64,000 nt of DNA from Cyanobacteria bacterium FACHB-DQ100 (GTDB lineage Bacteria; Cyanobacteriota; Cyanobacteriia; Leptolyngbyales; Leptolyngbyaceae): contig JACJNW010000028.1 of NCBI GenBank assembly GCA_014695195.1, forward strand, positions 558,001 to 622,000. Direction: 5' to 3'. A program made the position numbers and the translations under genes. Shown piece by piece: positions 50,319 to 51,830 of the stretch. The notes under the pieces are model-generated. The model did no database searches. It worked only from the letters and a program-made list of their open reading frames with translations, and was not told the origin of the DNA. How positions within the stretch are numbered: the stretch's first letter is position 1; each line of letters begins with the position of its first letter.

Positions 50319-51452
50319 TTACGATCGCACTTGGACAGGCATCACCAAATAAGTCATCTTCAGATTTCCGAGCGGCGAGAGAACCACAGGACTGGTTGAA
50401 GTGTTCAACTGCATTTGGATTTCTGACGTGTTGATTGCTTTCAAGCCATCGAGCAAGTATCGCACATTGAACGCAATCTCCATGCCATCACCAGAGATTT
50501 GTGCGGGAACTGCTTCTCGTCCACTTCCCACATCTTGAGCATCAACCGCCAGCGTAAGTTGCTGATTCGTCGGGTCAAGCTGAACTTTGACGATGTTGTT
50601 TTTCTGATCCGCAAGCACCGAGATACGCTCTAATGCACTCAGGAAAGATCGACGATCGACCGTCATCTGATGCGTAAACTGGCGCGGTACAAGCTGGCGA
50701 TAGTTGGGATATTGCCCTTCTAACAATCGGCTCGTGAGGCGCTGATCTGTCCACTCAAAGATGACCTGTCCTTGATCAAACTGCACATTGATCGCGTTAC
50801 CGTTCTGGCGATCGAGCATTTTCATCAATTCTTGTAACGCTTTGGCTGGAACCGTGACATCGAACTGAGAATCTGCTTCTGGAGCATCCTCTTCGACTGT
50901 TGTGACCACCGCGAGTCGATGCCCATCGGTTGCAGCAAACTCCAATCCATCAGACTGCATACTGACGTGAACTCCGGTGAGTACCTGTTTCGTTTCATCG
51001 GCACTCGCTGCAAACAGCGATCCTCGTAACCCATCCACCAAACGATCGGCAACTAACTGGGTTTGCTCTCCTTCTTCAATTCTGGGAAGTTCGGGAAACT
51101 CTTCAGCGCCCATGCCGCGCACCTGATAGCGTCCAGAGGCAGAGGTGATGGTTGTGACGTGATTGGATTCGATATCGCTTTCGATCGTAATGTCGCCTTC
51201 GGGAAGTCGCGATATGATGTCTCCCAGGAGTTTTGCCGGGAGTGTCAGAACGCCGCTCGTTTCGACGTTCGCCGGAAAGCTGGTTTGAATCCCTAAGCTG
51301 AGGTCGAAGGCGCTAAGAATGACGCGCTGAGTTGCAGCATCGGCTCTCAGCAGAACGTTCGCCAGGATTGGATGGGTGGGGCGCGAAGAAACCGCCCGAC
51401 TAACCAGCGACAAGTGTGAATTGAGGTGAGTTTGAGCGCAGACCAGTTTCAT
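50319..51452 (-). CDS. dnaN: DNA polymerase III sliding clamp (beta subunit)
   Basis: A 377-residue ring-forming clamp that holds DNA polymerase III on DNA. The three similar domains are visible: the first starts MKLVCAQTHLNSHLSLVSRAV, the second contains SADETKQVLTGVHVS and FAATDGHRLAVV (about 170-190), the third NIVKVQLDPTNQQLTLAV and the end LSPLGNLKMTYLVMPVQ, with the peptide-binding C-terminus. Length and domain order match DnaN. The upstream DNA carries TTTTCCACA boxes; in cyanobacteria dnaN often flanks oriC. It is convergent with the response regulator. Confidence 0.97.
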   Translation of the reverse strand: MKLVCAQTHLNSHLSLVSRAVSSRPTHPILANVLLRADAATQRVILSAFDLSLGIQTSFPANVETSGVLTLPAKLLGDIISRLPEGDITIESDIESNHVTTITSASGRYQVRGMGAEEFPELPRIEEGEQTQLVADRLVDGLRGSLFAASADETKQVLTGVHVSMQSDGLEFAATDGHRLAVVTTVEEDAPEADSQFDVTVPAKALQELMKMLDRQNGNAINVQFDQGQVIFEWTDQRLTSRLLEGQYPNYRQLVPRQFTHQMTVDRRSFLSALERISVLADQKNNIVKVQLDPTNQQLTLAVDAQDVGSGREAVPAQISGDGMEIAFNVRYLLDGLKAINTSEIQMQLNTSTSPVVLSPLGNLKMTYLVMPVQVRS

Positions 51453-51463
51453 AGGAGTTGCCG

Positions 51464-51830
51464 GAGTGTGGAACAGATGGGGGGGGTTGTGGAAAAGTAA
51501 AGCGTACTCTATATAGGTGTAGCTCTAAAATTTGAGGTGCTATATCTAGCGTTTTAATCGATGTTTGAGCATAGTAACACCCTTCGTCGGATCGATCCAC
51601 TCCCTCTTTAACCTAAGCGCGAAGCTAGAAAGAAACAGTGGTTATAAGTACTATTGTACGACCTGTGGAAATTGTGGAAAACGCAGCAAATCTCGATTCT
51701 TTCAGGGGAGTTGCGATCGCAGCCTGTGGAAAACTCTCAATTAACCGATCTCGGCTTCAAAGATTTTCGCAACTTGAGGGTATTTTTCCCACAGGTTTTC
51801 CACAGAAACCTAGAAGTTTTCCACAGAGGG
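51464..51830. other. Candidate oriC with a cluster of DnaA boxes
   Basis: Five perfect TTTTCCACA boxes lie in the 520-nt gene-free stretch upstream of dnaN: minus strand 51488-51496, 51673-51681 and 51725-51733; plus strand 51796-51804 and 51817-51825. One-mismatch boxes are at 51467-51475, 51664-51672 and 51785-51793. The A/T-rich part around 51505-51580 could be an unwinding element. TTTTCCACA is the DnaA box described for cyanobacteria, and a dnaN neighbour is the classical place for oriC in that phylum. Orientation of boxes changes across the region, a usual origin feature. DnaA itself is not in the window. Confidence 0.75.

Follow-up and report, generated by a model that had tools for sequence, protein, structure and literature searches.

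Does the group of DnaA boxes beside dnaN in this cyanobacterium mark its chromosomal origin, and what might boxes of the same sequence do elsewhere in the genome? The window analyzed here is a 64-kb stretch of contig C28 (G000:C28:558001–622000) from an assembly of 5.508 Mb in 44 contigs. On the minus strand at 50319–51452 it encodes dnaN, the DNA polymerase III sliding clamp (beta) of 377 amino acids (PF00712, PF02767, and PF02768; TIGR00663 with 370 bits). Among the named genomes searched, "Cyanobacteria bacterium FACHB-63" has the nearest dnaN (98% identity). An earlier note on this DNA had described five perfect TTTTCCACA boxes and three near-matches in both orientations beside dnaN. A word search confirmed all eight within 359 bp (51467–51825), the near-matches carrying one mismatch each. 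The dnaN-upstream region that contains them (51453–51830, without strand assignment) is the oriC candidate, based on the word search and on the recurrence of its layout in relatives.

On the minus strand, a one-mismatch box (TGTTCCACA) at 51467–51475 lies ∼15 bp from the dnaN start and is followed by the exact box nearest to dnaN (51488–51496, −44 from the dnaN start), a second one-mismatch box (ATTTCCACA) at 51664–51672, and exact boxes at 51673–51681 and 51725–51733. The plus strand features a one-mismatch box (TTTCCCACA) at 51785–51793 and exact boxes at 51796–51804 and 51817–51825, the latter two 21 bp apart. Relative to dnaN, the exact boxes are located at −373 and −352 on one strand and at −281, −229, and −44 on the other, which organizes them in two opposed half-arrays.

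All five exact copies of TTTTCCACA in the 64 kb fall into 51467–51825, compared with 0.91 expected, and none of 100 shuffles reached five. Because matches with at most one mismatch are hardly enriched across the whole window (26 versus 20.5 expected), the near-boxes carry weight only through their position. The complete 5.508-Mb assembly contains 64 exact copies, versus 34 of the reversed word, and at this genome-wide density five exact boxes in 338 bp correspond to a Poisson p of ∼8e-15. A similar box density at other loci, named in the earlier note as a refutation, was partly observed: other contigs carry three exact clusters, all smaller than the one beside dnaN. The spacing pattern of the locus, however, (two boxes 10–14 bp apart, then 55–85 bp, then one opposed box) has one match only.

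The layout recurs in relatives. At least two exact boxes are present within 1 kb upstream of dnaN at 54 of 80 named loci and at least three at 51, and a box pair at 21–22 bp is kept in 31 of the 54 (manual count). In the nearest named relatives (L003–L007), the boxes occupy almost the same positions as in the G000 array. Scored anywhere in the genome rather than anchored to dnaN, the oriC spacing pattern was found in 120 of 388 class genomes and its reversed control in none; 96 of the 120 genomes show a single match, and the matches of the other 24 overlap at one place. Pattern matches in families f5, f19, f23, f32, and others contain, between their boxes, a recurring short word rich in AT (TAGGTATAAATACC, with variants), which is perhaps a candidate unwinding element. 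This type of word was not seen in the array of the window, where AT content at the boxes peaks at 0.66 in 50-bp windows and no clear AT-rich unwinding element stands out.

In the upstream DNA available for 27 of the 80 relatives, three exact boxes in 400 bp were not found; 21 of these carry Nostocales genus names, four others still possess two to three exact boxes, and two of the 27 (L061 and L066) offer <300 bp of upstream DNA. Three loci with Nostocales names (L051, L062, and L074) feature an oriC-like array 4.1–4.6 kb upstream of dnaN, and L082 features one at 0.8 kb. The absence in other Nostocales may reflect displacement beyond the 5 kb of upstream DNA examined; a displaced oriC has been reported for Nostoc punctiforme (PMC5987646).

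These features closely resemble published cyanobacterial origins, which are reported to have dnaN on one side in 55 of 68 species and to contain the box TTTTCCACA (PMC4674748). Boxes of this type are bound in vitro by DnaA domain IV (PMC4674748). As in the oriCs of Synechococcus elongatus PCC 7942, Anabaena PCC 7120, and Cyanothece ATCC 51142, the TTTTCCACA boxes are located upstream of dnaN; what differs from the known dnaN-adjacent oriCs is the strain, and the details of spacing are those of its own relatives. The dnaA gene of G000, which encodes the DNA-binding domain, is found on contig C23 and thus away from dnaN on C28, as in other cyanobacteria (PMC4674748, PMC7198777). Because box sequence, number, both orientations, the place upstream of dnaN, and the recurrence of the layout fit published cyanobacterial oriCs, 51467–51825 is very probably the oriC of the chromosome, where DnaA is predicted to bind and to open the DNA. 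The earlier reading of the locus as an origin with the cyanobacterial box in the classical place is supported by the box word, number, and orientations, by dnaN, and by recurrence in relatives and across the class. DnaA would bind the eight boxes of the two opposed half-arrays, oligomerize, and separate the strands, and replication would begin next to dnaN. As such, the presumed oriC would be an ordinary, further example of the published arrangement.

GC skew had been proposed in the earlier note as a check. The mean skew on C28 has the expected sense, with −0.0024 to the left and +0.0046 to the right of the boxes, but the turn is not significant (p = 0.26, 117 blocks of 10 kb), and the cumulative minimum lies 39 kb from the boxes (1.182 of 1.201 Mb analyzed). 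The congener G115 (main contig of 5.695 Mb) shows no significant skew V in 38 samples of 20 kb (permutation p = 0.62 for the best split). The fraction of ORFs on the plus strand of C28 (0.55 left, 0.59 right) is uninformative. Most cyanobacterial genomes are known to have an irregular skew, and some of them replicate without DnaA (PMC7198777), so the skew check cannot decide here.

The lack of a significant skew turn on C28 and of a significant V in G115 would also suit a former oriC that DnaA still occupies, perhaps as a regulator of dnaN, while initiation takes place at another site or at many, as is reported for Synechocystis PCC 6803 and Nostoc PCC 7120. Indeed, DnaA-independent replication is reported to occur in cyanobacteria that carry dnaA (PMC7198777). 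We nevertheless regard disuse as unlikely, because it should bring decay, whereas layout and spacing recur in relatives, and because DnaA domain IV is matched in 41 of 42 family genomes, the sole genome without a match being 82% complete. What the sequences show is the box array beside dnaN with its recurrent spacing and a DnaA gene in the genome, from which we infer binding, opening, and the status of main origin. As the skew turn is not significant and several cyanobacterial lineages are reported to depend on DnaA and oriC no longer (PMC7198777), the region is best called the presumed active and sole origin.

The three smaller exact clusters were located by word search. The first comprises four boxes in 85 bp (C39:47316–47400) upstream of a gene for a DUF2811 protein at ∼C39:47717–47950. 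Its boxes follow each other in steps of 11 and 21 bp and then 44 bp to an opposed box; this spacing is identical in G115, and the first three boxes are present in 9 of 42 family genomes and in 7 of 8 in the genus. The second comprises three boxes in 371 bp (C37:70870–71240), with a decayed copy of DUF2811 and then hemJ downstream of them. The third comprises three boxes in 50 bp (C7:34807–34856; L084:10007–10056). Clusters of this third type have three same-strand boxes at 21 + 20 bp. All eight members of the genus carry one at the 5′ end of a DUF3122 gene, and both genomes of genus g7 carry one next to a CDF gene; DUF2811 was not seen at them. An Rfam search for known RNAs returned nothing in the window or in seven satellite loci.

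The boxes in front of DUF2811 are widespread. All 30 loci of an initial search with PF10929 have at least two same-strand boxes (at most one mismatch) upstream of the gene, and the exact boxes at these loci number 66 upstream and 2 downstream, with no occurrence of the reversed word. We defined a ladder as at least two same-strand boxes spaced 9–13 or 20–24 bp within 1 kb upstream of DUF2811. Of 100 loci, drawn from 94 genomes in 36 families, 84 possess such a ladder, whereas each of 30 shuffled control words (at least five differences from the box; any with TTTT excluded) yielded 0 of 100. The steps measure 11 or 21–22 bp, and up to seven boxes are arranged head to tail in helical register, ∼240–720 bp from the DUF2811 gene. 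Eight of the 16 loci without a ladder, seven of them in family f2, have a plus box followed by a minus box 44–46 bp on, the same pair that occurs in the C39 cluster, and the other eight have neither. Three genomes of the f31/g60 lineage (G218, G231, and G259; loci L337, L332, and L338) possess dnaA and a DUF2811 gene without a ladder; this lineage is possibly heading toward DnaA independence.

The DUF2811 gene sits between the array and a gene for a PDDEXK protein (C39) or hemJ (C37). On the hemJ side of G000 it is a decayed remnant, and PF10929 finds one copy in this genome. Both neighbors were considered as the partner of the ladder and rejected. Among 50 hemJ loci (30 from a search and 20 hand-picked to widen the families; L223 excluded, as it has no upstream DNA), a ladder accompanies 24 of 25 with an adjacent DUF2811 gene versus 3 of 24 without. 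For PDDEXK, the ladder is present at 17 of 18 loci with an adjacent DUF2811 gene, the exception (L281) having 833 bp of upstream DNA only, versus 0 of 12 without. The ladder thus tracks DUF2811, not the neighboring genes.

Between ladder and gene, family f1 shows a promoter-like pair, TTGACA and a second hexamer ending in AAT, at all 10 hemJ-type loci of the alignment and at 5 of its 11 PDDEXK-type loci; in the remaining six, including the copy of G000, TTGATC or TTGTAA replaces TTGACA. A further element, like the pair recognized by eye, around GTAACG...GATTCTTTCGT is located upstream of this pair at L208, L211, L214–L217, L254, and most of L255–L269, that is, at most aligned f1 loci of both DUF2811 types. 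Neither is a class-wide feature: in a pattern search, pair and element occurred upstream at 12 and 15 of 100 loci and downstream at 0 and 4, respectively.

With the ladder word identical to the oriC box, the DnaA of G000 probably also binds the ladders upstream of DUF2811 at C39:47316–47400 and C37:70870–71240. Most likely, DnaA would oligomerize along the ladder and affect a promoter downstream. We give about even odds to a class-wide DnaA output in which filaments on helically phased ladders set DUF2811 expression and DUF2811 itself has a role in the DnaA pathway, either as feedback on initiation or by coupling replication to the cell cycle or the photosynthetic state.

Boxes outside oriC and in front of genes make up the DnaA regulon of Bacillus subtilis. 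DnaA-box clusters of this bacterium occupy eight intergenic regions (cited in PMC7198777). Like the ladders, they are gene-upstream boxes outside oriC; here, in contrast, the gene is DUF2811, which was found in 190 of the 194 genomes of the class that were searched and whose absence goes with that of dnaA. The ladders likewise resemble datA, DARS1, and DARS2 of Escherichia coli, which are reported as DnaA-box clusters away from oriC and conserved among relatives (PMC4585315), but differ from them in their same-strand boxes with steps of 11 or 21–22 bp and in being tied to one gene family.

The main rival reading builds on this resemblance: the ladders would act in cis on initiation by titrating or reactivating DnaA, in the manner of datA, DARS, or the box clusters of Bacillus, with DUF2811 a mere neighbor or an accessory protein working on the ladder. 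The long head-to-tail runs in helical register look suited to a DnaA oligomer, and the long distance to the gene points the same way. Other observations speak against it. The ladder stays with DUF2811 when the neighbors change, a promoter-like pair lies between ladder and gene in family f1, and the distance from ladder to oriC, as a fraction of the main contig taken as a whole circle, is 0.34/0.43 in G115 versus 0.17/0.11 in G183, whereas the E. coli sites are reported to keep their chromosomal location (PMC4585315). Of the hallmarks of datA and DARS, the ladders hence share several boxes outside oriC and a place conserved among relatives, but not, in these two genomes, a conserved distance to oriC. 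We consider titration or reactivation a possible but rather doubtful explanation.

The DUF2811 protein is small (∼66–80 residues), and among 14 control genomes PF10929 matched only Synechococcus elongatus. Read by eye, the alignment has a strand-helix-helix look. An assignment as ribbon-helix-helix protein was not supported: three proteins gave no RHH family in Pfam up to an E value of 10, and a PDB search with DUF2811 returned one unrelated chain (E 0.72). A close-relative search of viral_contigs revealed no phage-borne relative. DUF2811 was not named in the literature searched, and searches of subscription-free papers for cyanobacterial DnaA-box clusters or a DnaA regulon brought up nothing on such ladders.

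The distribution of DUF2811 was compared with that of dnaA. DnaA domain IV (PF08299) is matched in 368 of 388 genomes; 13 of the 20 genomes without a match are at least 90% complete, and the other seven are 62–83% complete. The search for DUF2811 found no match in 10 of these 13 near-complete genomes, versus 2 (G027 and G151) of 180 near-complete ones that have DnaA. The corresponding Fisher test, which ignores kinship, gives p = 1.2e-12; it sets the 13 dnaA-lacking genomes of the 388-genome sample against 180 of the 194-genome sample, with the seven incomplete genomes excluded. DUF2811 is present in all seven of these, as expected if dnaA were merely unsequenced there. All 22 dnaA-bearing controls searched alongside have DUF2811, G295 with a weak partial match only. 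The oriC spacing pattern occurs in 0 of the 13 dnaA-lacking genomes versus 102 of 334 near-complete genomes overall, which lends slight support to the link with dnaA.

The 13 genomes belong to f36 (six), f32/g93 (two), f32/g96 (one), f42 (one), f31/g147 (two), and f35/g97 (one), and the first four groups are those in which DUF2811 was not found. Within genus g93, the dnaA-lacking G356 and G365 have no DUF2811 match, whereas six genomes with dnaA have both DUF2811 and ladder. In the remaining groups, the DUF2811 match of G353 (f31/g147) reads through two stops and those of G383 (f31/g147) and G150 (f35/g97) are intact. The gene of G150 has no box in its upstream 1 kb, whereas that of the dnaA-bearing G327 of the same genus has seven.

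G383, in which no DnaA match was found, has kept a two-box ladder together with DUF2811. This genome and the three f31/g60 genomes that have DnaA and no ladder would be compatible with another factor that recognizes a similar site and binds the ladder boxes independently of DnaA. Such a factor seems very improbable to us, given that ladders and oriC share exactly the same box word, that near-complete genomes without a DnaA match lack DUF2811 so much more often than those with one, and that in g97 boxes within 1 kb of DUF2811 are confined to the dnaA-bearing genome. We infer instead, from sequence comparison, a class-wide link between DnaA and DUF2811 with putative DnaA binding and a putative DUF2811 function: DnaA bound at the ladder would control DUF2811, which would act in the DnaA pathway.

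The ladders represent a variant of the known DnaA-box clusters outside oriC, and together with the near-absence of DUF2811 from genomes without dnaA they matter more than the origin. If true, the DnaA–DUF2811 link would account for DUF2811 being usually missing where dnaA is missing, and for dnaA being kept where chromosome replication no longer needs DnaA. Ohbayashi and colleagues ask what role DnaA plays in cyanobacteria whose replication does not require it although dnaA is retained (PMC7198777), and for this question DUF2811 would provide a single named candidate target of DnaA.
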